Shown: positions 18,321 to 57,298 of the stretch, in pieces
How positions within the stretch are numbered: position 1 is the stretch's first letter
Layout: each line of letters begins with the position of its first letter
DNA from: Candidatus Methanoperedens sp.
GTDB lineage: Archaea > Halobacteriota > Methanosarcinia > Methanosarcinales > Methanoperedenaceae
DNA: 64,000 bases
NCBI GenBank assembly: GCA_027460525.1
Contig: JAPZAS010000017.1
Span: 1 to 64,000 of the forward strand
Reading direction: 5' to 3'
Position numbers and translations under genes: made by a program
The notes under the pieces: generated by a model
Told to the model about the DNA's origin: nothing
What the model saw: only the letters and a program-made list of their open reading frames with translations
The model's database searches: none

Positions 18321-19400
18321 TTATCTTCTTTTACGACCTCTGATTAACGAACCTGCCAGCAACGTTATTGCAAGTAGAGCTACCGCCGCTTCGAATCCTG
18401 GCACTTCCTTCTTTGTTGGAACTGCCGCTGGTGTAGTCTCTATCGGAGTAACTGTTTCTGTTACCTCAATTACTGGTGTTGCTGCCGGTGTAGTGGGAGG
18501 CGTTGCTGTTGGTGTAATGGAAGGTGTTACTGCTGGTGTAGTGGAAGGCGTTGCTGTTGGTGTAGTGAAAGGTGCTGTTGGCGTTGATACGGCAATAGTT
18601 CCGCTGTAGCCCGCAGCGCCTATGAGTTCAGGATAACCTTGATAAAGAATCCTGTTAGTCGTGATTGCAGCGTATAACCGATAACTGCCAGAAGCCGTAG
18701 ATGGTATCTGGATATTTGCTTCATAGGTGCCAGTAGCGGTAGTTATGGCATTATTTCCAAAATGCGTCCTGGTTGAATCTTGCACAAACTCTACATCGAC
18801 GTTGTTAGGGGCAACACTTACAGGAGTTCCATTTTTAGAAACTGTTACCGTAACTTTGATTGTACTTCCCGGGCTTACCTGCTTGATGTTTGGAGTTGCG
18901 GTTAAATCATAGTTTGAGACGATTACAGGTTTAGCTATAAAATAGTTAGAATCATCTCGATTCTGGACTGCAAGGGCATAAATACCCGGACCCATTTTAT
19001 AGCCACCGCTACCGTCATCACAAACATCTGGACAGTTTGAATCAAATCTATCTGCGGATATTGTTGTTGAAATTGAACCCGATGTCGCATAAAAAGTTTT
19101 AAACCATGGTGTAATTTTATCAACAGTAAAAAGTACGAGCCTCATATTACTGACTCCTCCACTTACCGTTACACCAACAGGATCACCTATTTTATAATTG
19201 CCGATGTCTGCAACAGTAAAGGAAAATGTACTCCCTTCATAGGTAACTGTAAAATCACGATCTGGAACATCGAGTGATTTATCAAATGTTATAGTTGCGC
19301 CTGCGGCGTAGCCTACGAAGAAAAGAAATAAGGCTGCAGTCAGCAATATTCCACGTGATATAAATAATCCCAGATCAAATAAATTACGAACATTGTTCAT
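18321..19400 (-). CDS. Secreted surface protein with PGF-CTERM sorting signal
   Basis: An N-terminal signal peptide (LLTAALFLFFVGYAAG) leads into a domain of about 240 residues shared with the two genes upstream: it opens ATITFDKSLDVPDRDFTVTY and includes NYKIGDPVGVTVSGG and DRFDSNCPDVC. A Thr/Pro-rich linker of PTATPSTTPA-type repeats follows. The C-terminus VPGFEAAVALLAITLLAGSL then RGRKRR is a PGF-CTERM tripartite signal, which archaeosortase A is expected to process for lipid anchoring. The start at 19400 is the ATG after AGAGAT; a TTG 15 bases earlier is in frame. No archaeosortase gene is in the window. Confidence 0.8.
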   Translation of the reverse strand: MNNVRNLFDLGLFISRGILLTAALFLFFVGYAAGATITFDKSLDVPDRDFTVTYEGSTFSFTVADIGNYKIGDPVGVTVSGGVSNMRLVLFTVDKITPWFKTFYATSGSISTTISADRFDSNCPDVCDDGSGGYKMGPGIYALAVQNRDDSNYFIAKPVIVSNYDLTATPNIKQVSPGSTIKVTVTVSKNGTPVSVAPNNVDVEFVQDSTRTHFGNNAITTATGTYEANIQIPSTASGSYRLYAAITTNRILYQGYPELIGAAGYSGTIAVSTPTAPFTTPTATPSTTPAVTPSITPTATPPTTPAATPVIEVTETVTPIETTPAAVPTKKEVPGFEAAVALLAITLLAGSLIRGRKRR

Positions 19401-19593
19401 ATAATCTCTTAACAAATGAAGATTTAATGAATAGTAACTAATACTATAAAATCTTTACATTGGCAAATATTGTCAATTAAAGGACAGATTTTAACGATAT
19501 TTCTTGATATCCACTAACATGTCCTATAACTCAAGGTTCTTATTATTCATCTCTAATTCAGATTGTCATTAACAAAAAAGTACACAAGTATTT

Positions 19594-21504
19594 TTACGTT
19601 GTGGATACTGCCACTGACTGGGCTCCGATTACGTTGCCGCTGCCATCCTTTAACTGCAGCGTTATCCTGTTGTTTACAAGATCCAATGTTATCTTCTGCG
19701 TTGGTGTCAGGAACACTCCAAATGTCAGCTGGTCGCCCTTGTTTATGGTCAATTTCGTTGCCGGCCCGATGATTGCTCCGGTTTTTGGATCGGTCTGGTT
19801 CAACTGCAATGCCAGCCCTGTTATCGAATTTGGTACGACCAGATTAAGGGTTACACCGGTTGCATTGGCACCGACATTCGATGTAGCTACTGCAAAGAAT
19901 GTTGCGTTGTTAACGCCGGTCCTTACATCCAGGGTCGTGGATATCATGATAACATCCGCCAAGGGTGTTGCACTTGGTGCTGTGGCTGCCATTGTCAGCG
20001 TGTTCACTCCGCTTATCGGAGCTGCTGCCGCATTGGTGCCTGTCACGTTGAAGGTCATCGGCGAACTATTGAACGCCGCTGTTGCATTGATAGTCAGCAC
20101 AAAGTTAGCCGTGCCGCCTGCAGCTATGCTTGCAGGTGTGTTTGCTGAACCTGTGAATGCTGTTCCGTTCCATGGCTGGTAGCTTACAGTTGCGGGCTCC
20201 AACGGTGGCGCCTGTGCTATGCTCACATTGGTCGCGGTTGCTGTTCCGCCGTTAATCACCGACATGAATACCGTTATTGGTGTGCCTACCACTGCATTCC
20301 TGCTGTTTGGAGTTATGGAGGAGACCAGTGCCGGTAAAGTTAGCGCAAAACTTGCAGTTATAGTTGTGCTTCCGCTCGTGAAGCCAGTATTGCTTGCAGT
20401 TGCCTTTATTGCGCCTGCGCTCGTGGCTTTCAAGCTAAGGGTTAGTACACCACTGGCATCTGTAGTGCCGATTACGCTGACACCTGCACCGCTAATAGCA
20501 ATTCCTGCGCCACTTACTGGCGTGCCTGCGCTTGTTACTGCGAAGGTAACGTTAGTTGGTACGCCTACAGTTATTGTGGTCGGTGCTGCAGTTATGTTCA
20601 AGGGTTGCACCGCAGGTATCGGCGTAGGTATTGGAGTAGGTGGTGGTGTTGTAGTTGGACTCGGAGCAGGAGCAGGGGTAGGAGTAGGAGTAGGAGTAGG
20701 GATAGGAGTAGGAGTAGCAGTAGCGGTGGTTATTGTAATAATCCCATTGTAGCTGGCTGCGCCGATGGTTTCTGGATAATCTTGATAGATGTACTTATTA
20801 GTCGTAATCGCTGCATATAATTTATATGTGCCAGATGCATTAGTTGGTATCTGGATATTTGTTTCGTATGTGCCTGTTGATATGGCTACTGCATTTTGTT
20901 CAAATTTTGTTTTAGTTGAATCCTGAAACAACCCTACTTTGACGTTGTTGGGGGCAACACTTACAGGAGTTCCATTCTTGGAGACGCTAACTGTAACTTT
21001 TATTGTATTATCAGCATTCGTCTGTGTTTTGTCCGGGGTTACAGTCAAATCATAATCAGAAACAATTACAGGTTTAGCTATGAAGTATTTAGAATCGGCG
21101 TGATTCTGGACTGCAAGGGCATAAATACCTGGGCCCATTTTATATCCACCGCTACCACCACAAACATCTGCACAGTTTGAATCAAATCTATCTGCTGGTA
21201 TTGTTGTTGAAATAGAACCCGGTGTCGCATCAAAAGTTGAAAACCACGGTGTGAGTTTATCAACAGTAAAAAGTACAAGCCGCATATTGCTGACTCCTCC
21301 ACTTACTGTTACATTAACAGCATCGCCTATCTTATAGTTTCCAATGTCAGCAACCGTAAAAGAAAATGTGCTTCCTTCATAGGTAACCGTAAAACTGCGG
21401 TCTGGAACATCAAGCGTTTTATCAAATGTTATCGTTGCGCCTGCTGCACTTCCAATTAAGCTAAACATTGAAACCGCAACTATTATCCATAAATAAGCTT
21501 TCAT
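19594..21504 (-). CDS. Large secreted surface protein, paralogue without C-terminal anchor
   Basis: The 636 residues begin with a signal peptide (LWIIVAVSMFSLIGSAAG) and the same roughly 240-residue domain as the 18.3-kb protein (ATITFDKTLDVPDRSFTVTY). A Pro/Thr linker ([12 protein letters not shown]) follows, then two Ig-like domains: one with TITVGVPTNVTFAVTSAGTP, the other with a CARDB-like pattern (TPITVFMSVINGGTATATNV). It ends QSVAVSTT with no membrane helix or sorting signal, so it is either released or held by other proteins. The start overlaps the stop of the upstream paralogue (ATGA). Confidence 0.75.
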   Translation of the reverse strand: MKAYLWIIVAVSMFSLIGSAAGATITFDKTLDVPDRSFTVTYEGSTFSFTVADIGNYKIGDAVNVTVSGGVSNMRLVLFTVDKLTPWFSTFDATPGSISTTIPADRFDSNCADVCGGSGGYKMGPGIYALAVQNHADSKYFIAKPVIVSDYDLTVTPDKTQTNADNTIKVTVSVSKNGTPVSVAPNNVKVGLFQDSTKTKFEQNAVAISTGTYETNIQIPTNASGTYKLYAAITTNKYIYQDYPETIGAASYNGIITITTATATPTPIPTPTPTPTPAPAPSPTTTPPPTPIPTPIPAVQPLNITAAPTTITVGVPTNVTFAVTSAGTPVSGAGIAISGAGVSVIGTTDASGVLTLSLKATSAGAIKATASNTGFTSGSTTITASFALTLPALVSSITPNSRNAVVGTPITVFMSVINGGTATATNVSIAQAPPLEPATVSYQPWNGTAFTGSANTPASIAAGGTANFVLTINATAAFNSSPMTFNVTGTNAAAAPISGVNTLTMAATAPSATPLADVIMISTTLDVRTGVNNATFFAVATSNVGANATGVTLNLVVPNSITGLALQLNQTDPKTGAIIGPATKLTINKGDQLTFGVFLTPTQKITLDLVNNRITLQLKDGSGNVIGAQSVAVSTT

Positions 21505-22307
21505 AATTTCTTCTTTATAAACAATGCCATACCCAGAAGGATAAGCAATGTAACTGCTCCGCCTACAAAAGGCATCTTTTCCCCTGCCGAAGGTGGCGCT
21601 ATTTCGATATCTCCGCCACTTGCAATTGCTAATATCTCAGGATAGTTCATAAATACCTTGCGTTCCGTTGCTATAACTGAATATAATGAAAAGGTTCCAT
21701 TCGCAGCCTGCGGTATTTCGATGTGTGCCTCATACGCACCCGTTTTTGTCGATGATGCATTTGTTTCGAAAGAAGAACTGCCCTTTGAAAGCACTACCTT
21801 TACTGTATTATCCACGTTGACCGGAACACCGTCCCTGCTGATAGCTACTTCCACGTCAAAGCCATTGCCTGCGATTACTTTATTGCTTTTAGGTATCACC
21901 GAAAGGTCGTAATCGGATATTACCACTGGTATTGCCTCAATGATATTCGTTCCATGTGAAACCGTTAGCGCGTATGTTCCTGCTTCACCCGTCTTATTTG
22001 CAGGTATAACTCCAGCTACGCGTCCGCTTGTGTTATAGAAGCGCTTGAACCACGTTGATAGCTTATCCTTATCATAGAGGACAATAAGCATGTCATCCAC
22101 GCCTGGAGCATCGACGGTGAAGCCGATATCCTGATTCGTCTTATAACTTCCAATTTCCTTGATTTCGAAAGTCTGGTTTTCATAGCTGACTGTTCTATCA
22201 GGAACATCGATTGTCTTGCTAAGGATTATTTCCGTTCCCTCAGCAACGCTAACTGATATGCTTGAGGTAAATATCAAGATCCAAATAAACAATAAAAATT
22301 TCGACAT
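21501..22307 (-). CDS. Membrane-anchored surface protein, third paralogue
   Basis: This shorter version of the same domain runs from a signal peptide (LLFIWILIFTSSISVSVAEG) through IILSKTIDVPDRTVSYENQ and YALTVSHGTNIIEAIPVVIS, and ends in a transmembrane helix (FVGGAVTLLILLGMALFI) with KKKL. It lacks the Pro/Thr linker and the cysteine pair of its paralogues. ATG 22307 is chosen because the signal peptide begins there; an in-frame ATG at 22355 adds 16 residues. It is translationally coupled to the next gene. Confidence 0.7.
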   Translation of the reverse strand: MSKFLLFIWILIFTSSISVSVAEGTEIILSKTIDVPDRTVSYENQTFEIKEIGSYKTNQDIGFTVDAPGVDDMLIVLYDKDKLSTWFKRFYNTSGRVAGVIPANKTGEAGTYALTVSHGTNIIEAIPVVISDYDLSVIPKSNKVIAGNGFDVEVAISRDGVPVNVDNTVKVVLSKGSSSFETNASSTKTGAYEAHIEIPQAANGTFSLYSVIATERKVFMNYPEILAIASGGDIEIAPPSAGEKMPFVGGAVTLLILLGMALFIKKKL

Positions 22308-22391
22308 AGGTTTATAGAAAGGGAAGACAATCTTCTCTCTTTTAGCAGCTAGCATTCGCTTGAGCCCATCTTTTAAGCAACAATTATTTCC

Positions 22392-25166
22392 TTATTTACC
22401 TCCTTTCCTTATCACAAGGAAGTACACAGCTACCAGAATAATTACAATTACAATTAAAACTGTATACAATGTAACTGGAGGCGCTGTTATTGGTGGCACT
22501 GTAACGGAAGGTGTGGGTGTTGGAACTCGCGTAACAGTTGCTGTTGGCGATACAGCCAGTGCTTTTGGAACTCCTACTATCGCATAGCCTGAGAATCCAG
22601 GCGTTTCTGCTTTGTAGGTTTCTGCACCTATTTTCTCGGTCTTCAGGTCTCTCCATGCACCGTCAATGAACTTCATCAGCTTGACCGATTCTGCATTATT
22701 ATTCTTAAGCCAGTCATCAGGGACTTTGAACACTACATATGCATTTTCTATTTTTGAAGATGTGCCGTATCCGGATAATCCCAACCATACGTCGAAATAC
22801 CTGTACACGCTGCCAGGAGCATCGGATGTGGCCAGTTTAGGTCTGTCTTTGAGGAGCTGCACTTGAGCTGTTACCCATCCTTCATTTGTCCTGGCATCAA
22901 ACCCGATTCCTTTTACAATATCCAGAGTGGTGAACTTGTACACTATCGTGCCTACCGCGATATTCACATCTTCGCTTTCAGATTTCTCTATGTTGGCGAA
23001 GTTCTCGTTGGAACTGGCGCCGCCACCCCCGCTGCCTCCACCACCGCCGCCACCTGAAGGTGGTGGAGTTGGTGCTACAGTTCCGATGAGCGTGAAGGTG
23101 CTGAAGTGGGGTATAAGTGCTACCACAAAATTTTGATCCGTATTGCGCACAATTATTAACAGATTCTCAAACCTATGCGTAGTCCTGTTAAAGAATCTGA
23201 CCTGTAAGCTGTTTTCACTCACACCGGCTGGCAGAGGCTTGGTATAATTAAACCTTGCCTGTATCGGTGGATCAAACCTGGCACCTTCAGGTCCAAGATC
23301 AACAATATCTCCAACTACCCTGTCGCCGCTCGAGAGTGCCACGATTGCATTTGCTGGCAGACTTTGGGTTGAATCGGTTGAAACATTTGTAAGGGGATTT
23401 CCATTTGCATCAACAGCCAGAGTTCCATTTGGAATTGTTATTGTCACGTTTCCTGATGGTGATGTAATATTGATTGTGGTATTCGTTCTATTGGTATCTG
23501 GGTCTAATGGTAATTTATTCTTAATAGCACATTCCGTAGTCCTGATACTATCAGACCCCACAATGTCCTGCCCGCTGATTGTCGTTCCTGTGAGGCTTGC
23601 CTGCGTATCACCACATTTGATGCCCGTATCCTGAGTATTAAAATGAAGCATAAGTTTGTTGGCAGGAGTTTCACTACCAACTGGCACTGCACCATCGGGC
23701 CCAAATCTTACAGTTGAAATGATTATGCTGGCAACATCAAAGCCGGGAGGTGTGTTGTTAAAGATGGTTACTTTAATTTTACCACTGCTATTCGGGTTGA
23801 TGACCTTCGGGTTAATATCAATCGTGACATGGATAGCCAGTGGTGTGGGTGTGGGAGTTGGTGTTGCAGTAGGAGTGGGTGTGGGAGTTGGTATTGTAGT
23901 AGGTGTAGGTGTCGGAGTTGGTGTTGCAGTAGGTGTAGGTGTCGGAGTTGGTGTTGCAGTAGGTGTAGGTGCCGGAGTTGGTATTGCAGCGGGTGTAGGA
24001 GTCGGAGTTGGTGTTGCAGTAGGTGTAGGAGTCGGAGTTGGTGTTGCAGTTGGAACTAAAGTTATACTGCTCTGGTTGAATGCCACAGAGAGATTTGTGC
24101 TGTTAAAAACCACTGTATTGACAAGATAACTTCCCGCAGGAAGCGTGCCTGTTTTTAACGTCAGGACAGCAGATATCGAATTAACTGTAGTCCTAGTGGT
24201 ATTGGATCTGGGAATTATATCTCTGAGACCATTAGCATTATTTAATATTGTACCGTTGATCGTAGCCGCCTGCGCCAGGGTCAGGCATGAACTGCAGGTG
24301 ATATTTATCTTACCCACGTTATCATTAAAATCAGTTCTATTGATTATGCTGGTAACGTAGGTGTATTTTTCAATGGGAGCGGATGAGTTAAGAGTGATAG
24401 TCACGTTCAAATCATGGCCCTGTGCGGCAGCGCCTGTCCCATCTCCAACAGCGAAAGAAGAATTGAAAGGCATTACTTTAACGCCATTCCATGAAATAAT
24501 CTTCTTGGGGTTGGTGCCATTGGTAACCATTATCAGATAGTTCCCAGGTTTCAGGTCCTGGTTTATAGGGCCGAAATCGCCTGCGGAATTAAGTGGTACG
24601 GTGGTGACATTGATTTCATTTTCATCCTTCGCAGTTGTCAGGAACTCATCAAATAGCTTTGAATTATTGTTCCATGTGTCTTTTAAATCATCAAAGTTAA
24701 TCACAGCAATAGAAAAGTCCGAGAAAAAAGGTATACTGTAGCTTACCTGTTTGAAAGTGGACACGTTGACGACCGTATTTGCAAAAGAACTTGATGCATC
24801 TATAGTGTAACTGACCGCTGCTTTACCGCTGGGGCCTATGTAATACACCTTTTGGTTTGGTAAGTCTGTTATGCTCGGTCCAAAGTGACTGGTATTTAAA
24901 ACCAGCGACCTGTTTCCGCTTACAAGAGTTTTGTTTATTGCGAATTCCAGGCTGATCGTCGGCATCGCAATATCGCTATCAATCAGTCTGACGAAATTAT
25001 TTGATTTCAGAACATCATCTGTGATTGTATAGTTGCGAGCGGCAACATTGGTATAATTAAAATTTATTCCAGCGTTTGCCGGAACGACCGAAATCATTAT
25101 TAAAGCCAGTATTAATAATATGGTTGATGCAGAATAACTTTTTATATTTTTTGAACTATGAACCAT
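22392..25166 (-). CDS. Giant secreted protein with Pro-Thr linker and PGF-pre-PGF domain
   Basis: The 924-residue protein has a signal peptide ([20 protein letters not shown]), a beta-rich N-terminal region of about 340 residues with many N-glycosylation sequons, a PTPTPTATP linker of about 75 residues, and a domain with [21 protein letters not shown] Gly/Ser spacer leads to a PGF-pre-PGF domain ([16 protein letters not shown] to [15 protein letters not shown]). The C-terminus is a membrane helix with RKGGK rather than a PGF-CTERM. The ATG at 25166 is preceded by GGCGGAG; upstream in-frame ATGs lack such a site. It is divergent from the ABC ATPase. Confidence 0.8.
23838..24052. repeat. Low-complexity tract coding the Pro-Thr linker
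   Basis: About seven 30-base units of the type GGTGTAGGTGTCGGAGTTGG (plus strand) repeat with few changes and encode [10 protein letters not shown] on the minus strand. Repeat-number variation between strains would be expected. Confidence 0.8.
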
Positions 25167-25258
25167 ATCTCCGCCTATAACCTTAACTTTCATAACGTTG
25201 TTCACACATATAATATTTACCGTCATAAATATAATTATTAGTATAATGATGATGATAC
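25167..25258. promoter_or_regulatory. Divergent promoter region, surface protein / ABC transporter
   Basis: The 92 bases contain a leftward TATA-like AAATATTATATG (complement of about 25205-25216) and rightward AT-rich boxes (CATAAATATAATTATTAG). Both genes probably start from here. The rightward ATG lacks a strong ribosome site, which suggests a short or absent leader. Confidence 0.4.
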
Positions 25259-25945
25259 ATGGCTGATAAAATCGTGCAGGTTACTAATCTAAGCAAGCAC
25301 TATCGTGTAGGCGAAGTAGTTATTGACGCACTTCGCGGTGTTAACCTTGAGGTCGAGCAGGGCGAGTTCGTCGTGATACAGGGTCCCAGCGGTTCAGGTA
25401 AATCCACCCTGCTGCATATCATAGGCTGTGTGGACGTCCCAACATCAGGCAGCGTGAAAATTAACGGTTACGATACCACGAATTTAAGCGCCGGGCGGCT
25501 TTCAAATCTTCGACTGCACACTATCGGCTTTGTATTCCAGCATTTTTTCCTCCTGCCAACACTGACAGCGTATGAAAACATCGAACTGCCCATGCAAGAG
25601 GCGAAAATTTCGAAAGACAAAAGGAAAGAGCGGGTTTTAGCCCTGTTAGATTCGGTCGGGCTTTCAGGTCGAGCCAATCACAGACCCGGGCAATTGAGCG
25701 GCGGTGAGCAGCAGCGCGTCGCGATAGCGCGTGCACTGGCAAATGATCCTTCCCTTATTCTGGCTGATGAGCCAACTGGTGAACTTGACAGCAGCGGAGG
25801 GAGTAAGATAATTGAACTGCTAATCAATTTAAATCAAAAATACGGTAAAACCACAATCGTTGTAACACATGACGAAAATATCTCCAGAAAAGCAATGCGC
25901 ATAATAAAAATCAGGGATGGATCAATAGTAACTGATGTTAGCTAA
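25259..25945 (+). CDS. ABC transporter ATPase, LolD/MacB type
   Basis: The 228-residue ATPase has Walker [10 protein letters not shown] (about 42-50), Q-loop [13 protein letters not shown], signature LSGGEQQRV, Walker [13 protein letters not shown] and the switch histidine in VVTHD. The sequence class is that of MacB/LolD/FtsE exporters that work with FtsX-type permeases. It overlaps the permease gene by 11 bases. Substrate unknown; in this setting an action on surface proteins or envelope lipids is possible (inference). Confidence 0.88.
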
Positions 25946-27098
25946 GATTGCCTTTTTAAACTTGGTGCATAGAAAATCCAGAACCTTTTTCACAGCATTA
26001 GCTATTGGTATTTCTGTGGCGACGGCTATTTTGCTTGTATCTGTTGCTGTAAGTCTGAATCAGAATAACACATCAGCTTTTGAAAAAGAGACCGATTACT
26101 GGGTTATACCATCGGGTTCAGGCGTACTTGATCCTGTAACAAATTCAGAAAAAACTATGCTGGGAAATGTTCACCAGCAAATTAATGCCATAAAATCAAA
26201 TCCCGATGTGAAGAATGCAACTCCTATCTTGAGTAAAGTGATATACGCAGCCAGAAAAGAACCCAAGGTTGTACTTGGGATCGGAATCATACCTGATGGC
26301 AATATCTTCATTCCTGCAGACGCTCTATCCTCTGGTGACCCATATTACTATGGAAAAAATCGGACATTCGAAGTTGCAATAAACCAGCAGCTTTCGAACC
26401 TGCTTGGAGTTAAAAAAGGAGACTATGTATATCTGGGTGGATCTGCAAACACACTTCTGAATTCTACTCCTTTCAGGGTTACAGCAACAGTAGATTCTGC
26501 TGAATTCTCAACTGCACCAGTAGCCATGCTTCATCTTTCTGAACTCCAGGAGCTTACAGGAAATTTAAAAGGGGATAGGGCAAACCAGATAATTGTAAAA
26601 GGCGGGAATATCCAGTCCCTGCTGCAGGGATATTTTCCTGATGCTATTGTTCTTTCCGACGCAGAGTATTATGCGCACAGCATAACCGACGATAAACGGA
26701 CTCTTGCGACTGCAATAGCAATTACTGCTGTTTCTTTCGTATTGGGTGTGCTATTTATATCCACAACAATGATCTTTTCAGTTAATGAGCAACAAAAAGA
26801 ATTCTCTGTAATGAGAGCAATTGGTATTTCTGATAAGTCAGTCATAAAAATTGTCATGTACGAGTCTGTTATGATCTCTATCATAGGGGGCATCGTAGGC
26901 GTGGTATTGGGTTTTTCAGGGAAGTACGCTTTAAACGCTGCAACCAGTTCGTTGTTTGAAATCGACATTGTCTCATCAATAAATCCTGTGATAATCATTG
27001 CTGCTTTCTCCACAGCAGTCGTTGCAGGAATAGTTTCAGGGATAATACCTGCTCTCATGGGCAGGCGAGCAAACATAGCCAAGGTATTGGGTGGCTAA
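25935..27098 (+). CDS. FtsX/MacB-type ABC permease
   Basis: The 387-residue protein has the expected layout: one N-terminal helix (FFTALAIGISVATAILLVSV), a large extracytoplasmic domain (about 45-255), and three C-terminal helices with the conserved QKEFSVMRAIGISDKSV block before the third. It pairs with the ATPase upstream and overlaps the DUF1616 gene by 8 bases. A second permease of the same class lies at 35.0 kb. Confidence 0.85.
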   Translation: MLAKIAFLNLVHRKSRTFFTALAIGISVATAILLVSVAVSLNQNNTSAFEKETDYWVIPSGSGVLDPVTNSEKTMLGNVHQQINAIKSNPDVKNATPILSKVIYAARKEPKVVLGIGIIPDGNIFIPADALSSGDPYYYGKNRTFEVAINQQLSNLLGVKKGDYVYLGGSANTLLNSTPFRVTATVDSAEFSTAPVAMLHLSELQELTGNLKGDRANQIIVKGGNIQSLLQGYFPDAIVLSDAEYYAHSITDDKRTLATAIAITAVSFVLGVLFISTTMIFSVNEQQKEFSVMRAIGISDKSVIKIVMYESVMISIIGGIVGVVLGFSGKYALNAATSSLFEIDIVSSINPVIIIAAFSTAVVAGIVSGIIPALMGRRANIAKVLGG

Positions 27099-28034
27099 AG
27101 TGATACCGAAATTACTTTTAGACTTATTGAATAATTCTTTTCATGGATCGAGTTACAAAGTCCGTAGCGGGCTTATATTCAGGCTCCCATCCGACCTTAA
27201 GGTTGTTATTGTCATGTCTGCGCTGACCTTTGTATTCGTGCTCATGCCACCTTTAGACAGTACTGCGTTAAGAATAATATTTGGAATACCCTTAGTGCTG
27301 TTCCTTCCCGGTTATGCTTTAATAGCCGCGCTTTTTCCCGGCAAAAATGACCTTGATACTATAGAGCGCATTGCCCTCAGCTTCGGATTGAGCATAGCGA
27401 TTGTTCCCCTCATCGGTCTTGCTTTGAATTTCACGCCGTAGGGCATACGCCTTGTTCCCGTTATTATCTCATTAACTGTTTTTATCTTGATAATGACATT
27501 TATCGCTCACCTCAGGCGGCTCAAGCTTCAGGAAAATATGCGGTTTGATGTAAAATTCAAAGAAATGTATCATTCACTTAAAAATGAAATATTAGTCAAA
27601 ACTGAGAACCGTATTGATAAAATTTTAACTGCAGCTCTTGTTATTTCCATCGTAGCTGCTTTGATTATGCTCGCTTATGTCATCGTTACTCCAAAACAGG
27701 GTGAGAAATTCACCGAATTCTATATACTTGGCACAGGCGGCAAGGCTGAAGGTTATCCCACAAACCTGACTGCAGGAGAAATCAGCGCTGTCATCATCGG
27801 CATAGTAAACCACGAATACGAACTGTCAACTACACGCTTCGCATTAAATTAGGTGAGGATGTACTGGAAGAGCAGCAGATACGAACAGCACATAATCAAA
27901 CATGGGAGCAGCAAGTCAATTTTACTCCCGTGCGTGCAGGCGATGGAATGAAACTTCAGTTCCTCCTCTACAAGAACAACAACTTTACACTGCCGTATAG
28001 AGATACCCATTTATGGGTGAATGTAAGAGGTTAA
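27091..28034 (+). pseudogene. DUF1616 membrane protein gene, broken by an amber codon and a frameshift
   Basis: The full DUF1616 pattern can be read: LPSDLKVVIVMSALTFVFVL and GIPLVLFLPGYALIAALFPG, then GIRLVPVIISLTVFILIMTF, then LGEDVLEEQQIRTAHNQTWE and FLLYKNNNFTLPYRDTHLW. It is interrupted by TAG at 27439-27441 (after LNFTP) and by loss of about one base near 27823 (TCAACTACACG, where the downstream frame needs one more base). Both breaks would have to be bypassed for a full product. Pyrrolysine at the amber codon is conceivable in this lineage, but the frameshift makes decay the simpler view. It converges on the next gene with overlapping stops. Confidence 0.75.
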
Positions 28035-28843
28035 CGCAGGTTGAATCTTGCGACTATGCTATTTTTACTGTGTTCAACTTGCTCTATTACGATGGTTTTT
28101 CCTGTATTTTTGGCAACTATGCACGCTATCAGACTGCAAAAAGAACACCCGATATCGCATATACGCGGCGCTTCTTTAGATACCTTATCGCATAGATTTA
28201 TATAAACGGGTTCGTTGACTTTTACAGTTATAGAGCTGCCCTGCATTACCTCCACGCTTTGCGCCAGTTCAAGTCCCTCTACAAGCACATCATTTAAAGC
28301 CTGCGCCAGGTCGCTCCAATCCGCCCCTTTTTTTTCTGCCATCTGCATAAGGGAATATCCGAGCGGGATAAGTACTAAAGCAGTGCTGCTGGGTTCATCA
28401 CCTGCCTGAAAAGTTCTCTGTGGAATCTTCTCAGGGATTTTATAATCAGACCTGAGAGGAAGAATAACCCTTATTTCATTATCTGCCAAAATATAAATCC
28501 CTTTTGAATATATTTGAAGCTCCTGTATGATATTGTTTATGACAATAATGCTGGAAAGGACGCTTTTCTCCATGAGATCTTCCCTGACGAACCTCTCCGG
28601 ACTGAGAAAAAGAGAGATAATGCCGAGGTAAGTAGTACCAAGACCTGCGAATAAAAGGATAGAGGCAAGTGTAGTATTATTGTAAGTGAAATAAGAGAGT
28701 GCAAGAGTTATAGCCCCGAAAAATATCAATGTATACCCTGTGTTTCTATATTCATTTTTTTTTGCCAGCCCGTGCTCAGCCCTCAGCCTCTCATTCTCTC
28801 TTTCCAGCTCAATCATCCTTTTTCTCAGTAATGCGTTTTCCAT
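28031..28843 (-). CDS. Coiled-coil membrane protein of unknown function
   Basis: The 270 residues start with a charged coiled coil (LLRKRMIELERENERLRAEH), then two membrane helices (TLIFFGAITLALSYF and TLASILLFAGLGTTYLGIIS). A cytoplasmic alpha/beta domain follows, with a cysteine-rich stretch, ICDIGCSFCSLIACIV, near residue 230. I do not recognise the family; the C-terminal part recalls small ligand-binding domains of the V4R kind, without proof. It overlaps the DUF58 gene and is the last gene of the MoxR operon. Confidence 0.65.
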   Translation of the reverse strand: MENALLRKRMIELERENERLRAEHGLAKKNEYRNTGYTLIFFGAITLALSYFTYNNTTLASILLFAGLGTTYLGIISLFLSPERFVREDLMEKSVLSSIIVINNIIQELQIYSKGIYILADNEIRVILPLRSDYKIPEKIPQRTFQAGDEPSSTALVLIPLGYSLMQMAEKKGADWSDLAQALNDVLVEGLELAQSVEVMQGSSITVKVNEPVYINLCDKVSKEAPRICDIGCSFCSLIACIVAKNTGKTIVIEQVEHSKNSIVARFNLR

Positions 28844-30222
28844 CTATATACCGCCTGATTGATTATTTGTTCAGGCTTATCTCCCGGGCAAGCTTCCACA
28901 ACTTTCACGCCCTTAAGCCGTTTGAATTTTTCAATTTTTTTCTGAAATCTCATGTATTCCTGGTAATGTCCCTCCAGTTCAAGTACATCGTATGCCCTGA
29001 ACATAACCGACGATGTTGCTATTAAAAGAACCTTGTTTCCATAATAAGTTGCAAGGCGTATACTTTCAATCAACGGCGCATCGTATCGTTCTGTTATTAT
29101 ACAGATCATGGAGGGTGTCTTTGAAAAATTTATCACGCGTTTTATTGCCTGGTAAATTCCCTGCTTTTCCATAGCCTTTAAGTGTTCCGAATTCTCGACA
29201 AAAAATGGAGCAAGTAAAGAAAAAAATTCATCTTTTGACGAACTCAATTTTTGCCCAAATGCCTTTATCTCCCCCATATCCATAGCCATGGCATATGGCT
29301 TACTCTCTTTCTGTTCCAGTGAAAAAAGATTTCTCGATATTTCAAACCGTTTTTTTCCTTTTTTTATTAAAGTCTGATTCGTAATGCGGTCATGCGTAAA
29401 CGTTAGCAGACCTACAGGTTGATCGTTACCTTCTGCCTGCTGAATCAGATAATTTGCCATCCTGACAGCATTGCCGAGATTGCTATCCGGGTTGGATGTC
29501 TTGCTGTGATCAACCAGAACAAACACCGGAAGCCCGATGTCTGATTCGAACTCTCTTGTAAACATGCTGTTAAGCCTCAAACTCGTTTTCCAGTCTATAC
29601 GCTTGAAGTCGTCTCCCAGCATGTAATTTCTAATGTTGGCAACTTCAATGCCCATACCTTTTTGTTTTGACTTGCCTGAACCATAGAGTGAAGAAATATA
29701 CTGAGCTAAAATAGATCTTTTTGATAAAACCGGTGGGTAAATGCTGACTTCTGCCCTGCTTTCAAGAGTCATGCTATGCTCAAACATGTGAAAATTGCTT
29801 CCGAGATGGATATAGGACTCTGAAAATGAATGCGTTCCGCGCTTGATTGCGCATAACCTGTAGCAGATATTATGATAGGAACTCCCAGCATCGATCTTTC
29901 TTGTCACATCTCCAGAAACAAGCGTAAAAGCGTCAGGATATACGTCTTTAAAATATATGTTTTTTAAGTTTTTAGCTTTAATTTTTAACTCCATCTTTAC
30001 ATCCAGAAAATTATCCTGGAACATTCTATTTTTACTGATATTTCTTATTGCATATGAATCGAATGCATCGACCGCAATCAAAAAGCTCACCAGATCAAAA
30101 AACAGAATGATAGCTATAGCAATGCCTGCTGCATAAAATAATGGGTTTGTAGTTATTAAACCCAACATCAGGAAAATAAATATAAAAACTATGGCATTTT
30201 TTCCTCTATGCTTGAGATGCAT
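28825..30222 (-). CDS. DUF58 domain protein (von Willebrand-like), MoxR partner
   Basis: Two membrane helices near the N-terminus (IVFIFIFLMLGLITTNPLF) precede the DUF58 signature RNYMLGDDFKRIDWKTSLRL and a vWA-like segment with PVFVLVDHSKTSNPDSNL, which resembles a MIDAS site. Length 465 is typical for archaeal members. MoxR/DUF58 pairs act as chaperone-like systems in assembly or metal insertion of partner complexes. It lies three bases downstream of the MoxR gene. Confidence 0.85.
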   Translation of the reverse strand: MHLKHRGKNAIVFIFIFLMLGLITTNPLFYAAGIAIAIILFFDLVSFLIAVDAFDSYAIRNISKNRMFQDNFLDVKMELKIKAKNLKNIYFKDVYPDAFTLVSGDVTRKIDAGSSYHNICYRLCAIKRGTHSFSESYIHLGSNFHMFEHSMTLESRAEVSIYPPVLSKRSILAQYISSLYGSGKSKQKGMGIEVANIRNYMLGDDFKRIDWKTSLRLNSMFTREFESDIGLPVFVLVDHSKTSNPDSNLGNAVRMANYLIQQAEGNDQPVGLLTFTHDRITNQTLIKKGKKRFEISRNLFSLEQKESKPYAMAMDMGEIKAFGQKLSSSKDEFFSLLAPFFVENSEHLKAMEKQGIYQAIKRVINFSKTPSMICIITERYDAPLIESIRLATYYGNKVLLIATSSVMFRAYDVLELEGHYQEYMRFQKKIEKFKRLKGVKVVEACPGDKPEQIINQAVYRWKTHY

Positions 30223-30224
30223 TT

Positions 30225-31166
30225 TTACACAACTTCCACCTGGTTTAAAATATTCTGGATAATCTCGTTTACAGTTATTCCGCCGAGTTCTGAATCAGGC
30301 GTTAAAATCAAGCGGTGCCTCAGTACAACCGGGAGTAGATATTTGACGTCGTCAGGAATAACGTATGACCTGCCACGGATTGCTGCGAAGGATTTTGATG
30401 CGTTGAGAAGCGCAATAGATGCCCTGGGACTTGCACCAATCAAAAGATCCTTGTTCTTCCTCGTATTTATAACCAGATTCCTGATGTATCGCATTACTTT
30501 CTCATCTATATACACTTTTTTCACAGCCGCTATAAGGTCGTTGATTTGCTCTGGAGCGGTCACTTTTCTTATTTCGCTCGATATTCCGTTATCTTTTCGG
30601 ATGAGTATATCGAGTTCTTCCTTTTCATCAGGGTATCCCACATCGAGTTTAAACAGAAACCTGTCGATCTGCGCTTCAGGAAGTGGATACGTCCCCTCCA
30701 GGTCTATCGGGTTCTGGGTTGCGATAACCATAAAGGGCACAGGCACTCTCATGGTCGTTCCCTCAAGCGTGACCTGTCTTTCTTCCATGCATTCCAGCAG
30801 GGCGGATTGGGATTTCGGAGAGGCACGGTTGATTTCGTCTGCCAGCACAATGTTAGCAAAAACAGGACCTTTTCTGAGCTCAAAGCTCCCTGTCTTTTGA
30901 TTATAGATATACGTGCCTGTGATATCCGCTGGCATTATATCAGGAGTGAACTGAATCCTCTTGAAATCACAGCCAAGCACTGAGGCAAATGTCTTGGCAA
31001 TAGTTGTTTTCGCAACACCGGGATAACCCTCCATGAGAATGTTCCCCTCTGAAAGAAGGCATATTATAAGGTAATTGATAAGGTCGGTTTTTCCTATGAC
31101 CACTTTGCTTACCTCATCAAAAATAGCTCTGATTGTATGCTGAACCTTTAATAATTCATTTTCCAT
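30225..31166 (-). CDS. MoxR-family AAA+ ATPase
   Basis: The 313-residue ATPase has Walker A MEGYPGVAKTT (about 41-51), Walker B IVLADEINRASPK, sensor 1 VIATQNPIDLEGTYPLPEAQ and sensor 2 GASPRAS. These are diagnostic MoxR blocks. Start and stop overlap or abut the neighbours, showing one operon with the DUF58, DUF4350 and DUF4129 genes. Confidence 0.92.
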   Translation of the reverse strand: MENELLKVQHTIRAIFDEVSKVVIGKTDLINYLIICLLSEGNILMEGYPGVAKTTIAKTFASVLGCDFKRIQFTPDIMPADITGTYIYNQKTGSFELRKGPVFANIVLADEINRASPKSQSALLECMEERQVTLEGTTMRVPVPFMVIATQNPIDLEGTYPLPEAQIDRFLFKLDVGYPDEKEELDILIRKDNGISSEIRKVTAPEQINDLIAAVKKVYIDEKVMRYIRNLVINTRKNKDLLIGASPRASIALLNASKSFAAIRGRSYVIPDDVKYLLPVVLRHRLILTPDSELGGITVNEIIQNILNQVEVV

Positions 31167-32158
31167 TATTTCTCTTTCTTTAGTTTGTTTTTAAAAAGCA
31201 TCAGTTTTCGCTCGCTCCATTTATGTCTTTTTAAGATATCTGAAATTATATTCTCTTCATCCAGTTCACAATAACCATGGTCATTTGTTTTATCTCTTCC
31301 GAATAGACCTATCTTGCCTCTGTTCGTATATAAAAATGCCAGAGATACTATAATACCTGCCAACAGGTATTGAGCATAAGGATCTGTCTTTATCAGGTAA
31401 TCAATATTAGAAACAGGCGGCATTCGACCGCCCTCATCAAAAATTACTGTAGTTCGATTTTCCACAAATTCTCCGAGCAGACGCTTGTTCTCTTCCATCG
31501 GGAGCATGCTGTTTATAAATATACTGGGGTCGGCTATTGCTATTATCTTGCCTCTGCCATAGGGGAAATAAGCTATCACAGGATACGAACCCGGTTGCCC
31601 ACGCTGTGATTCATTTTCAGAAAGCCTGCCAAACCTGCTTGTACTGGCGAGTACTTCAATTGATTTATCTGTTATTACAAGGGATGTCGGATAATTCATC
31701 GTGATGTTGCTCACGTTTCCAATGCTTGTTGCTGCTACCGGGAATGTGGAGTTCTTCCAGAAGCTTACATCATCCTGCAGGAGCATATTAGAAAATGAGA
31801 CAGAAGTTGTAAATCTATTGAGAAGCTCATTTCCTGAGCCGAAATCATCCGAAAGGAGGAGTAGCCCGCCTGCTTCTACAAATTTCCTGATCGTATAAAT
31901 GTCTTTTTCTGAAAAATTGCCCCTTGGCCCAAGAATGACAAATGCAGTTTCACCGGGTGCGAAGGATACAAGATCGCTGCGAACCGGCATTGCTATAACT
32001 CGATGATGTTCAGATATAAGAATTCTGATCTGCATGCCTCCATTCCAATCTGGATTGTATGTGCTGAAGTCCGCCGTGCTCTCGGAGAACCTGAAAGTGC
32101 CTATAAGTATGAGGATAGATGCGATTAACAATAATATTTTCTTATTTATTTTTTTCAT
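31166..32158 (-). CDS. DUF4350 membrane-anchored protein
   Basis: An N-terminal helix (ILLLIASILILIGTFRF) is followed by a DUF4350-like extracytoplasmic domain: FVILGPRGNFSEKDIYTIRK then FVEAGGLLLLSDDFGSGNEL and YFPYGRGKIIAIADPSIFIN. A second helix (YLLAGIIVSLAFLYT) leads to a charged tail. Such proteins regularly sit between MoxR/DUF58 and DUF4129 genes, as here. Confidence 0.8.
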   Translation of the reverse strand: MKKINKKILLLIASILILIGTFRFSESTADFSTYNPDWNGGMQIRILISEHHRVIAMPVRSDLVSFAPGETAFVILGPRGNFSEKDIYTIRKFVEAGGLLLLSDDFGSGNELLNRFTTSVSFSNMLLQDDVSFWKNSTFPVAATSIGNVSNITMNYPTSLVITDKSIEVLASTSRFGRLSENESQRGQPGSYPVIAYFPYGRGKIIAIADPSIFINSMLPMEENKRLLGEFVENRTTVIFDEGGRMPPVSNIDYLIKTDPYAQYLLAGIIVSLAFLYTNRGKIGLFGRDKTNDHGYCELDEENIISDILKRHKWSERKLMLFKNKLKKEK

Positions 32159-34475
32159 TGCTTAAATTATGAATTTTTCTTAATAAATCTACAGCTTTTA
32201 CAGCTTGCTCAGCATCCATCTTTCTGCTGCTGTACATGGCAGTTTCATACAGCTCGGTAAGCTTCAGGAAATCATCTGCAACTGCTGGCATGCTGCTTTT
32301 TGCAATATTGTAAAACTCCCAGTGGGTTTGTTGCGGAGCACTTTTGATTCCGGAATATGTTGAAACGCAATCTTTTGCATCTTTGTAGGAATATAAAATC
32401 GATTCTTTGAATTGTTTTTGTTCAATAAGATTTTCCAGATGTGCATAAACCTTGATTAACATATCCTGTTCCTGTACTTGCACTGCTGTCTCTTCTGGTT
32501 TTTGTTTTATTTCAGCTTCTTTCAGAGGCTCATGTGTAATTGGAGGCGTTTCTGTTTTTGTCCCACTGCCAATTCGTACTTTAATTGCTGATGCAAGAGC
32601 ATCGATCCATAACGAGAGCTCTTTTCTTAAATAGAAAATAATGATTATACTAATTGCTCCAAGTATTAAAAATAATATATTCCTACTATGCTCTGGTTTA
32701 GCTATTATTTCAACGGATATTGAATTTTCAGACGGCAAGAATGGCGAATCTCCAGTGAATTTCACTGTAACAGTGTGGTTCCCCAAACTCGTATTTTTGT
32801 CAATCCAGAAGCTAAAGAAAAAATCGCCTCTGGTCACAACTGCAGCCCCCACTTCCTTTTCATCGAGGAGGGTACTTACCCTGGCATTCGGGACTTCAAG
32901 GTTCTTATCTGTTAACAGTTTCCCTGTTAGATTGAGATAATCCTGCTGATATGCAATCTTTGCCCCGGATATTATAATTGTAGTCGCTGTCTGCATCAGT
33001 GTTATTATTGTTTTATTACCGGATCGAAAGAGCGGCTGCTCTGATGGAATGAACTCGGCATTAACTACATGCTCGCCTTCAGCCATCGCCGGAACGTTGA
33101 AATTGTATTGATACAATCCTTTTTCATCGGTTTTAACATTCACAGGGGTTTTGTTATCGAGCTTTATAACAATGTCAGCATCAGTAATGCCTGATGAATT
33201 TTTCATAACCAAGCTTCCTGATAGAGTTAGGATATCGCCAAACTTGCCGCGGTCAGGGTCAGCCTTTATAGTAAGTGTGGTATTTTCAGGTATCACTTTT
33301 ATTGCCGTTGTGTTGCTGGATTGAAGAAGGAGCGGGTCGGATGAAATAAAATCCAGTTTAACTATATGCTCGCCTTCAGCTATCCCTTGAATTTTGAAAT
33401 CATGATCATACAACCCCTTTTCATCGGTTTTTACATTGGCAAGGGTTTTATTATCGAGCTTTATAACAATATCAGCATCAGCAACTCCTGATGAATTTCT
33501 TGCAACTAAGCTTCCTGATAGGTTCAGGATATCACCGAACTTGCCGTGGTCAGGGTTGGCTTTGATTGTAAGTGTAGTATTTGTTTGTTTAATAAAAAAC
33601 GAGCCTCTGGCAGATGATTCTAATAGCGGTTCATTAACAGGAACGAAATTCACCTGCACAGGGTAAACGCCGGGTTTTTTATTTGATATTTTATATGTGA
33701 AATTGTATTTTCCATTCTTATCAGTAGAAATTTTAACGACTTCGTTATCTATTTTAATTGCCAGGCTGGCGTCCGGAACACCAGAACCATTCCCGGGCAA
33801 TGTCAGGTTGCCTTTTATATATATAGCATCCCCCAGTTCGCCTCCCGGAGGAGAGACTGAAAGTAAAGTTTCAGTTTCATCGAAAAGCGTCAGCTCAACA
33901 GTTAGCCATCGCTTCTGGATCTCATTCAACGTGCTGTTAAAGGATAATAATCCATTCTGGTAAAGCGTGATATTCACGCCAGGATACTGCGCCACAGCCT
34001 CCATTATAAGTTCCTGCTGCAGGGAACTGAGATTCCCGACAATATTACTGGCTTTGAGCGCTATCTGGATTGCCCTATCAGTCTGGTTGTTCTGGTATGC
34101 GAGTTTTCCCTCTTCGTAGAGAGAGCGCAGCTGGTTAATCTGATCAGTAGTCAGGTTCAACGTATTCGCGCTTTTTTTTAGTTCTGTATAAACATCGCCA
34201 TTAATTCCAATTAAAATGTTATCATTCTCTTTCAATGTTCTCAGGTAGCTCTCGAAATTTTCCTGAGCGCCTTTGATATCCCCCTTGTTCAACGAGATGA
34301 ATACTCCTGACCAGTAGGACAGCAATTCGTTGATAAGCAGCACCTGCTGCGCCTGAAGGTTTGCAGTAGAAGCGGTAACATTGGCAGGATTTATATGGGA
34401 AGGAATACCTCCCGATGCTGGTATGATTACAGCGGAAATTATTAAGAAAACCAGCAGGATATTCAAGTCTTTCAT
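32142..34475 (-). CDS. Ig-repeat membrane protein with C-terminal DUF4129
   Basis: The 777-residue protein has a signal peptide (ILLVFLIISAVIIPASGG), a helical region (about 30-205), then four Ig-like beta domains of about 95 residues. Two of these are close copies, marked by TLTIKANPDHGKFGDILNLS and TLTIKADPDRGKFGDILTLS. A membrane helix (NILFLILGAISIIIIFYL) at about residue 600 precedes a cytoplasmic domain whose THWEFYNIAK and LTELYETAMYSSRKM fit DUF4129. It is the first gene of the operon. The hairpin-rich repeat at 34.5 kb lies in its upstream region. Confidence 0.8.
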   Translation of the reverse strand: MKDLNILLVFLIISAVIIPASGGIPSHINPANVTASTANLQAQQVLLINELLSYWSGVFISLNKGDIKGAQENFESYLRTLKENDNILIGINGDVYTELKKSANTLNLTTDQINQLRSLYEEGKLAYQNNQTDRAIQIALKASNIVGNLSSLQQELIMEAVAQYPGVNITLYQNGLLSFNSTLNEIQKRWLTVELTLFDETETLLSVSPPGGELGDAIYIKGNLTLPGNGSGVPDASLAIKIDNEVVKISTDKNGKYNFTYKISNKKPGVYPVQVNFVPVNEPLLESSARGSFFIKQTNTTLTIKANPDHGKFGDILNLSGSLVARNSSGVADADIVIKLDNKTLANVKTDEKGLYDHDFKIQGIAEGEHIVKLDFISSDPLLLQSSNTTAIKVIPENTTLTIKADPDRGKFGDILTLSGSLVMKNSSGITDADIVIKLDNKTPVNVKTDEKGLYQYNFNVPAMAEGEHVVNAEFIPSEQPLFRSGNKTIITLMQTATTIIISGAKIAYQQDYLNLTGKLLTDKNLEVPNARVSTLLDEKEVGAAVVTRGDFFFSFWIDKNTSLGNHTVTVKFTGDSPFLPSENSISVEIIAKPEHSRNILFLILGAISIIIIFYLRKELSLWIDALASAIKVRIGSGTKTETPPITHEPLKEAEIKQKPEETAVQVQEQDMLIKVYAHLENLIEQKQFKESILYSYKDAKDCVSTYSGIKSAPQQTHWEFYNIAKSSMPAVADDFLKLTELYETAMYSSRKMDAEQAVKAVDLLRKIHNLSNEKNK

Positions 34476-43508: not shown

Positions 43509-43529
43509 GGTTATTTTAGGGGAACCAAA

Positions 43530-44870: not shown

Positions 44871-44891
44871 TGGAAAATAAGTACTGGTGGT

Positions 44892-45962: not shown

Positions 45963-45966
45963 TTTC

Positions 45967-47091: not shown

Positions 47092-47096
47092 AAGGG

Positions 47097-47192
47097 GTGG
47101 GTTACATTATTAAAATCTGTATGGCTGTTACAAATCCTTGTACAAATGACGCCCATGTATTATCACTTTCTTGTATATGCTCAAAAACCTGA
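47097..47192 (+). pseudogene. Remnant of a glycosyltransferase start
   Basis: A 31-codon frame from GTG 47097 contains KICMAVTNPCTNDAHVLSL, which resembles the opening 'mkI.mvvtnpf..DaRVl.eA' of many GT4 genes, and then hits a TGA. I read it as the leftover 5' end of a deleted transferase. A chance match is possible because it is so short. Confidence 0.4.
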
Positions 47193-47205
47193 ACAGGGAT
47201 TAAAA

Positions 47206-48402: not shown

Positions 48403-48414
48403 TGAAAAGGAAAA

Positions 48415-50286: not shown

Positions 50287-50325
50287 ATAAAAAAGAGAAA
50301 CCATTATGAATTTATTAAAATCACC

Positions 50326-52741: not shown

Positions 52742-52755
52742 GGATTTGAATTAAA

Positions 52756-54389: not shown

Positions 54390-54465
54390 TGGTTAGAAAA
54401 CTAGTTAAAATGTGTGTTTAGTAACTGATAATTTCGAATGCAATAAAAATATAGGTGAATTGAAA

Positions 54466-55623: not shown

Positions 55624-55639
55624 ATATTTCCCACTCAGC

Positions 55640-57241: not shown

Positions 57242-57298
57242 TTAATTCACCGACCTTCCCTCCTCAATCCAAGCCTCACCGTATTATTCCTAACTGTA

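Follow-up and report, generated by a model that had tools for sequence, protein, structure and literature searches.

We propose, at about even chances, that a domain of some 240 residues shared by three neighboring surface proteins of Candidatus Methanoperedens serves as extracellular partner to a type VII-like ABC machine, with protein A as the core copy and proteins B and C as copies uncoupled from the machine and fitted with exchanged tails. A would be held by its own membrane helix beside an FtsX/MacB-type permease, and as ATP drives the permease ectodomain, its movement would be transmitted to A and to a large surface protein, D; the machine may in this way extract surface glycoproteins, load them, or assemble them. 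The other two proteins, B and C, would be later copies that no longer couple to the permease and are displayed via their tails: archaeosortase lipid anchoring for C and, for B, a lineage-specific C-terminal module that would keep it at the surface. Type VII ABC systems recurrently work with an extramembrane partner protein, as set out in part of PMC12646458. The window is the 64,000-nucleotide stretch of DNA that was analyzed, and its genome is referred to below as G000.

Three Paralogues with a Predicted Pair of β-Sandwiches

Genes A, B, and C are minus-strand ORFs and true paralogues, as the initial annotation had it: B is 65% and A 39% identical to C over a common region of about 240 residues, and the three are the only matches (E ≤ 0.01) to the shared domain in their own 2.44 Mb genome. 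Gene A (21501..22355, likely ATG at 22307) encodes a signal peptide, the shared two-sandwich ectodomain (∼21594-22244), and a C-terminal membrane helix (∼21507-21557). Gene B (19594..21504), whose ORF overlaps that of A by 4 bp, encodes a signal peptide, the shared domain (∼20740-21441), a Pro/Thr linker, an Ig-like stretch (∼20347-20607, approximately residues 300-386), and a C-terminal module of ∼245 residues that is followed by TAA (19597..20334, minus strand) and is called the CTD here. Gene C (18321..19415) encodes a signal peptide, the shared domain (∼18567-19295), a Thr/Pro linker, and a PGF-CTERM-like end (∼18324-18401). The two Ig-like domains first assigned to B give way to one Ig-like stretch plus a module of two halves, so the protein probably holds three β-domains there rather than two. 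In a tree, A groups with the copies of genomes G002 and G025, its nearest relatives at 63-64% identity, and B and C form a sister clade inside Methanoperedens. Because the gene order D-A-B also recurs in G002 and G025, the paralogy, taken with the sequence identity, is beyond chance.

Structure prediction of the shared domain of A is confident and gives two Ig/macroglobulin-like sandwiches, so that the predicted fold is an ordinary, common β-sandwich pair. In this model, the first sandwich superimposes on CD109 (9fx2) with Z 11.5 and an rmsd of 1.6 over 88 residues, both sandwiches superimpose on TEP1s (4lnv) with Z 12.4 and an rmsd of 11.5 over 178, and Ig chains score almost as well as macroglobulin chains. 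The matches listed by the structure search for A are of macroglobulin, complement, and Ig-type families, a list from which the absence of other families proves nothing. The predicted model thus has the MG2-type fold of the alpha-2-macroglobulin/TEP family; the domain is not assigned to that family because no MG2 sequence match exceeds the family cutoff (best 14.6 bits against 32.8). For the second sandwich, the YtkA-like family (PF13115) is matched by B at 26.6 bits (cutoff 25.9), by C at 23.3 bits, which is below the cutoff, and not by A. A haloarchaeal homologue of the domain, L110, scores 19.9 bits against TIGR04279 (cutoff 35) and has matches in eight plasmid records from haloarchaea (29-33% identity, with 53% of its length aligned). 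D was considered as a fourth paralogue and is not counted as one: its TIGR04279 region is similar by eye, and hhalign gave a probability of 0.2%, or 4% with 44 rows. A mobile or viral origin was set aside, since searches of IMG/VR found no relative of either the shared domain or the CTD and the window CTD is unmatched in plasmids and phages.

Tails of A, B, and C

A ends in the plain membrane helix expected of it, a hydrophobic segment followed by KKKL. At the end of C, a PGF motif precedes a hydrophobic stretch and RGRKRR, whereas B lacks a C-terminal hydrophobic segment. The 19-residue Kyte-Doolittle maximum over the last 60 residues is accordingly 2.3 for A, 2.0 for C, and 0.8 for B. The assignment of C as a PGF-CTERM protein is right in layout, but its score against PGF_CTERM (TIGR04126), 14.9 bits, lies below the cutoff of 24.5 (Heimdall-CTERM: 18.7 bits, cutoff 24). 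The genome holds two matches to archaeosortase A (TIGR04125) over the cutoff, at 244 and 213 bits, and a PGF-CTERM fate for C is therefore possible. "Choice-of-anchor" families, in NCBIfam naming, have one front and different C-terminal anchors; the shared domain behaves in a like manner, and the curated choice-of-anchor models gave no match to A, B, or C at E ≤ 1.

B had been described as having no anchor, and it does lack a membrane segment, but its tail is not neutral: the same module ends 13 other complete ORFs of G000. The anchorless state looks derived because PGF-pre-PGF is present in five of the six B-type relatives scanned, whose C-termini, read by eye, carry a membrane segment, some together with PGF and some lacking it; the B relative in G027 has neither CTD nor anchor. 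By parsimony, it is likely that the CTD replaced a PGF-CTERM-type end in B, and instead of marking B for release, such a tail may serve to retain it.

A C-Terminal Module on Unrelated Fronts

The CTD occurs in 2 of the 185 genomes of the order, ending 14 complete ORFs of G000 (B included) and three of G016. Its fronts are unrelated and differ from ORF to ORF: an MtrC-like cytochrome with 15 CxxCH motifs, a subtilase, a chitinase-cupredoxin protein, VWA and NosD proteins, and B. At least 14 CTD-bearing proteins of this organism are probably exported. We note a 289-residue protein (L149:4320-5189) that comprises little beyond a signal and the CTD and could be a layer-forming unit. A profile search for solved relatives of the module returned none (best E 0.14), and its single-sequence structure model (pLDDT 42) is unusable. 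Type IX CTDs are likewise one C-terminal module on many fronts; type IX sorting models gave no match to window B (E ≤ 1) or to four further CTD proteins (E ≤ 0.05).

A simple rule that the CTD replaces PGF-CTERM was rejected: the swap is seen for the S8 protease and not for the cytochrome. Among 40 genomes searched, the one near-full-length orthologue of the protease outside the CTD genomes (in G008) matches PGF_pre_PGF at 141 bits, and its sequence at the position of the CTD in G000 reads by eye as a PGF end; more distant subtilases have various ends, three of them (L186, L187, and L189) without a membrane segment. The cytochrome orthologues lack a membrane segment in 8/8 closed tails, so there the CTD replaced no anchor. 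This last result agrees with the reading that the CTD, an Ig-like pair spread by shuffling, plays no part in sorting and that B is freely secreted, which we hold to be possible, if well short of an even chance. The missing membrane segment of B fits it too, as does a weak likeness to DUF11 and NPCBM_assoc: the window copy scores 20.2 bits against DUF11 (Pfam cutoff 24.6) and 11.3 against NPCBM_assoc (cutoff 24.4), both below the cutoffs, and among 19 CTD members 11 and 13, respectively, have weak matches (E ≤ 1). Free secretion is opposed by the position of the module. In all 16 other complete ORFs, the BLAST alignment with B's tail extends to the final residue or stops one short of it, and the matches listed for G000 (all 28 candidates scored, one weak match unlisted) and for the 185-genome search (14 of 22 candidates scored) include no internal copy. 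The terminal position is taken from these alignment ends and from the match ends in the 185-genome search; the stop codon that follows the CTD in 17/17 rows is circular, the rows having been cut from ORF ends. Also opposed to free secretion is that, within the genome, identity at fourfold sites averages 53% against 66% for amino acids, so that selection, more than recent copying, maintains the likeness. Recent gene conversion was rejected on the same average, by which most copies look old; the pair L151/L152, with 92% identity at these sites, looks recent. Tentatively, and with confidence well below even, we put forward the CTD as a new archaeal sorting or attachment module of ∼245 residues in two parts, found in two Methanoperedens genomes only, which would hold at least 14 exported proteins at the surface through a putative receptor of its own, as an alternative to archaeosortase anchoring.

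Association with an ABC/FtsX Module

The three-gene set of the initial annotation stands, but the unit extends upstream to gene D (22392..25226, minus strand), which lies 36-84 bp from A depending on the start of A, and beyond it an ABC/FtsX module diverges from the A-D unit, starting at 25259. D is a 944-residue surface protein with a C-terminal membrane segment, scoring 45.3 bits against TIGR04279 (cutoff 35) and 113 against PGF_pre_PGF (cutoff 28). The module comprises, on the plus strand, an ABC ATPase (25259..25945; ABC_tran 119.6 bits, cutoff 25) and an FtsX/MacB-type permease (25935..27098; FtsX 68.9 and MacB_PCD 47.3 bits, both over the cutoff). Hydropathy peaks of the permease at 21-39, 257-275, and 306-324, with two overlapping at 340-371, place one membrane segment ahead of the ectodomain and about three behind it. 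The stretch 25259-27098 therefore has the features of a type VII ABC system: a separate ATPase and a permease with FtsX, a MacB-type ectodomain, and one plus three segments. Further along lie a gene for a DUF1616 membrane protein (27091..28030, plus strand), its frame broken in the assembly by an internal stop near 27441 and then a frame change; minus-strand genes (28825..32158) for DUF58 (28825-30222), a MoxR-type AAA+ ATPase (30225-31166), and DUF4350 (31166-32158); a secreted protein with Ig-like domains and DUF4129 (32142..34475, minus strand); and a second FtsX/MacB-type permease (35009..36211, plus strand).

The shared domain is carried by 20 of the 185 genomes of the order and the matching permease (E ≤ 1e-70) by 21, 16 of which also have the domain (Fisher p = 2e-15, uncorrected for relatedness). 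A domain copy lies within ∼6 kb of an ABC/permease pair in 15 of the 20 carriers, counting G079, whose permease was seen in the neighborhood though outside the E ≤ 1e-70 set. Four carriers (G014, G007, G027, and G067) have no adjacent ABC pair, and the neighborhood in G002 runs off the contig. The domain gene is directly upstream of the ABC pair, on the same strand, in nine genomes: it overlaps the pair in two, is separated by 49 bp in one and by 11 bp in one, and in five the gap between A and the ATPase gene is 1 bp. Five permease genomes lack the domain; no diverged copy was found beside their permeases, three of these contigs being short. At haloarchaea-like loci, where gene labels were sampled with Pfam and NCBIfam, a D-like surface protein is near the domain in 17/17 (three being the D queries themselves), the full ABC set of ABC and two permeases is present in eight and absent within ∼7 kb on each side in nine, and relatives of at least one of DUF58, MoxR, and DUF4350 are near in four. 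By gene order, then, it is the ABC genes and D, rather than its fellow paralogues, that are the most conserved partners of the domain. The annotation had set its proposal against an ordinary fold in copies scattered singly among relatives; the predicted fold is ordinary, but most copies are syntenic. These neighborhoods, and the D-A-B order of three Methanoperedens genomes (G000, G002, and G025), support its view of the proteins as parts of one surface apparatus.

It is unlikely, in our estimate, that the paralogues are ordinary Ig-like adhesins or coat proteins brought near the ABC genes by the clustering of envelope genes, with no mechanical link. Such clustering has many causes and the sandwich pair is a common fold; moreover, the B/C-type copies in G014 and G027 have no ABC gene within the available stretch (for L040, only ∼0.5 kb upstream), and in family f2 (L050, L105) a ∼790-residue protein in a different context contains a relative of the domain. 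The 1-bp gaps, the presence of the domain in most permease genomes, and the similar partner set at haloarchaea-like loci speak instead for the ABC partnership. That A, C, and B form the base, the middle or connector, and the outer or released layer of one structure, as first suggested, is very improbable: one cluster with three different tails and the D-A-B order in three genomes accord with it, but 12 of the 20 carriers have a single match and three have tandem copies, the clusters of G002, G025, and G015 contain no counterpart of C, most B-type relatives have PGF-pre-PGF and a membrane-type end, and the conserved partners lie outside the paralogue set.

Comparison with Known Systems

Type VII ABC systems (FtsEX, LolCDE, MacAB, and YbbAP-TesA) have extracytoplasmic partner proteins. 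The window resembles them in its separate ATPase, its permease, and a gene for an extracellular protein in or next to the operon; it differs in that the host is an archaeon with no outer membrane and the partner proposed here consists of two macroglobulin/Ig-like sandwiches with swapped anchors, and its permease is only distantly related to solved MacB and FtsX chains (best E 7e-9). Makarova et al. (2015), in a section of PMC5898192, predicted that arCOG01314 (DUF4350) and arCOG02884 (DUF1616) belong to an archaeal secretion or membrane-remodeling complex, and the window likewise brings together a MoxR ATPase, DUF4350, the frame-broken DUF1616, and secreted Ig-like proteins. The part of that text describing this neighborhood names no ABC transporter, a SalXY-family ABC being named for another gene set, whereas here the shared domain is most tightly associated with the ABC/FtsX pair. 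In Haloferax volcanii, hvo_2160-hvo_2173 includes a very large ArtA-type secreted glycoprotein, a second secreted glycoprotein, and a DUF1616 protein, a clustering whose cause is called open by the authors in part of PMC8241124; it resembles the window cluster in its described gene content. The end of C is like those of PGF-CTERM/archaeosortase A substrates in layout, and D and the five B-type relatives are like PGF-pre-PGF proteins; unlike PGF-CTERM substrates, A has its plain helix and window B the CTD. Other PGF-CTERM proteins and S-layers are treated in portions of PMC8875312 and PMC9012536. TIGR04279 occurs in none of the open-access papers listed for it, and the titles and abstracts listed show nothing about the CTD or about a link between the domain and the ABC genes.

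Our analysis ties an unnamed surface domain to what may be an ATP-driven envelope machine of methane-oxidizing and haloarchaea-like genomes, and its occurrence in the latter makes the role of the domain testable in a laboratory haloarchaeon. One front moves among three ways of ending at the archaeal surface, and the candidate retention module that ends B is also carried by a multiheme cytochrome, in a genus studied for extracellular electron transfer.

Gene Cluster and Shared Domain

Four genes lie on the minus strand in close succession: D (22392-25226), which encodes a 944-aa surface protein, followed by the surface-protein genes A (21501-22355, with an alternative start at 22307), B (19594-21504), and C (18321-19415). 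Between D and A lie 36 bp (84 bp with the alternative start), the ends of A and B share 4 bp, and 178 bp separate B from C. Each of A, B, and C begins with a signal peptide followed by ~240 common residues; identity to C in the alignment is 65% for B and 39% for A. The three copies are the only ones in this genome (2.44 Mb, 99.5% complete), and the three paralogues with a common domain reported in the initial annotation are real.

That annotation could assign the domain to no known family. This holds for scans of the shared part against Pfam and NCBIfam, where the one score over cut-off is YtkA in B (26.6 bits against 25.9; C falls below it and A has no match). A model of A built from 8 sequences (mean pLDDT 85.7, residues 22-238 mostly >90) depicts two predicted beta-sandwiches and a terminal helix. 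Taken together, the sandwiches align with neighboring domains of the thioester protein 4lnv (Z 12.4), although the rmsd is as high as 11.5 over 178 residues. Aligned singly, the first sandwich fits CD109 (9fx2; Z 11.5, rmsd 1.6 over 88); for the second, the match is ICAM-1 (1p53; Z 11.0, rmsd 2.5 over 88). With Foldseek, complement, antibody, and receptor Ig chains rank together. On this model, the architecture is an ordinary one. We do not claim membership in the macroglobulin family, as the MG2 score is 14.6 bits against a cut-off of 32.8.

Elsewhere in the window, a PF07752 S-layer protein (319 bits) is encoded at 10858-13029, ~5 kb from the cluster, and positions 42000-58000 have a GC content of 29-33% vs 37-50% elsewhere, with ORFs that look glycan-synthesis-like by eye. 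A short ORF at 59428-59778 resembles a truncated tandem copy of the longer ORF at 59998-61071, whose first 25 residues it repeats with one difference; the likeness to an epimerase is by eye only. The genome has two over-cut-off matches to archaeosortase A (G000:C8 and G000:C34; L005, L006).

Association with an ABC ATPase and Permease

Within the order, a 17-row profile detected the domain in 20 of the 185 genomes, and these 20 belong to three families. In a phylum-wide sample of 392 genomes it matched 22, namely this genome, G034, 17 clear haloarchaea-like carriers, and three weak partial matches (G266, G335, G282). The label "haloarchaea-like" is based on eight plasmid records with haloarchaeal names, all of which match a single protein from the 17 carriers. 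In 15 of the 20 order carriers (G000, this genome, with G015, G009, G011, G030, G010, G025, G005, G032, G034, G068, G069, G075, G076, and G079), a copy lies within ~6 kb of an ABC ATPase and an FtsX/MacB-type permease, the pair found here at 25259-27098; in nine genomes the copy immediately precedes the pair in the same orientation. The pair was not seen near the domain in G014, G007, G027, or G067, and the G002 locus runs off its contig. The permease (E <= 1e-70) occurs in 21 of the 185 genomes and the domain in 16 of those 21 (Fisher p 2e-15, uncorrected for kinship). No diverged copy was found beside the permease in the other five (G042, G054, G058, G061, G065), three of whose permease contigs span only 4.6-6.8 kb.

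At all 17 haloarchaea-like loci a D-like protein adjoins the domain or lies within ~2 kb, three of these proteins being the query sequences themselves; PGF_pre_PGF is over cut-off in six of nine scanned. An ABC gene with two permeases is present at eight of the 17 loci, an ABC gene stands at the edge of one more (L118), and lower-scoring ABC genes occur at two (L111, L123). DUF1616 is found at 3/17 and MoxR, DUF4350, or DUF58 at 4/17. Pfam agreed with the gene labels for the ten proteins scanned. Family f2 has a relative of the domain embedded in a ~790-aa protein, within a separate recurring gene set (L050:3574-5946, L105:945-3341).

Exchange of C-Terminal Tails

In a 43-row tree of the domain, A groups with the G002 and G025 copies (100/100). 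The sister clade, still inside Methanoperedens, unites B and C (99/97); there B pairs weakly with one G027 copy (L041) and C, also weakly, with another (L040). Five of six B-type relatives scanned combine the domain with PGF_pre_PGF (150-160 bits). Of these, L037 and L039 end in PGF, L040 ends in GGF, and L038 and L042 end in plain helices; the tail of L041 differs and has no anchor. The protein's end has thus changed several times, and the three anchoring fates described initially are one snapshot of repeated tail change.

A search with the last 338 residues of B gave 17 matches in this genome and 20 in G016; in other relatives, most among the matches listed cover only the first Ig-like stretch. 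Reading of ORFs in L147-L157 revealed that 14 complete ORFs of this genome, B and 13 others, end in the same ~245 residues, and one further copy is cut by a contig end. In all 16 complete ORFs besides B, three from G016 included, the alignment of B's tail reaches the last or last-but-one residue. Among the G016 matches, some run into contig ends, and C20 is a short fragment interrupted by a stop codon. Hydropathy indicates a hydrophobic, signal-like stretch at all 17 ORF starts examined. Among the fronts are an MtrC/MtrF-like cytochrome (15 CxxCH motifs), a subtilase, VWA+TIG, GH18+cupredoxin, four NosD/beta-helix proteins, and Big-type proteins, and one ORF (L149:4320-5189) is barely more than signal and module. 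By profile search, the module occurs in 2 of the 185 genomes of the order (14 of this genome's 22 candidates scored) and in 1 of 392 in the phylum sample, this genome itself, G016 being outside that sample. Copies within the genome average 66% identity in amino acids vs 53% at fourfold sites.

An N-terminal pattern, approximately GGRALRIxVGITALVLLLAGG, recurs in many exported proteins of this genome and of G016 and in one G027 protein; it is an unusually conserved signal peptide (L149, L148, L153, L155, L041).

Does the module replace an anchor? The one near-full-length subtilase orthologue outside the two module genomes, from G008 (62% over 951 aligned residues), carries PGF_pre_PGF (141 bits) and ends, by eye, in TPGFGLLQAVAMIIAMYFFVRKRG (TIGR04126 was not reported). 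More distant subtilases vary, L188 having a membrane segment and L186, L187, and L189 none. Of 11 cytochrome orthologue loci read, eight have tails closed within the locus, none with a membrane segment. Replacement is therefore seen directly once, in the subtilase; B is a likely second case, and the cytochrome shows none. MtrC-like orthologues in other Methanoperedens have another recurrent tail of ~90 residues, with related ends and no membrane segment, which in several begins near GWNLVSLN (L192, L193, L194, L198, L199, L201).

A Possible ABC-Linked Machine

Type VII ABC systems are described as carrying ATP-driven motion across the membrane, with a recurrent partner protein (PMC12646458). 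A may be the ectodomain partner of such a type VII-like machine, and we infer that in archaea the cargo would consist of surface glycoproteins, D among them. An account by Makarova et al. (2015) groups DUF4350, DUF1616, MoxR, and Ig-like proteins in a predicted secretion or membrane-remodelling complex (PMC5898192), and like gene kinds occur at 27091-34475. The DUF1616 gene here (27091-28030) is broken in the assembly, being interrupted by a stop codon near 27441 and changing frame further on; its relatives have open frames of ~280-320 codons, and the break reflects decay or assembly error. As described in PMC8241124, the Haloferax volcanii hvo_2160-2173 cluster encodes five N-glycoproteins, among them a DUF1616 protein and HVO_2160, a predicted ArtA substrate and the organism's largest protein; the authors there leave the reason for the clustering open. 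That it is the same cluster as ours is a lead.

The initial annotation envisaged a layered surface structure with a base, a connector, and a released or outer layer. The finding itself is real, and an ABC-linked surface module whose tails can be exchanged explains it better than such layers do. Fold and neighborhood are both variants on known types; what a specialist would find unexpected is the C-terminal module.
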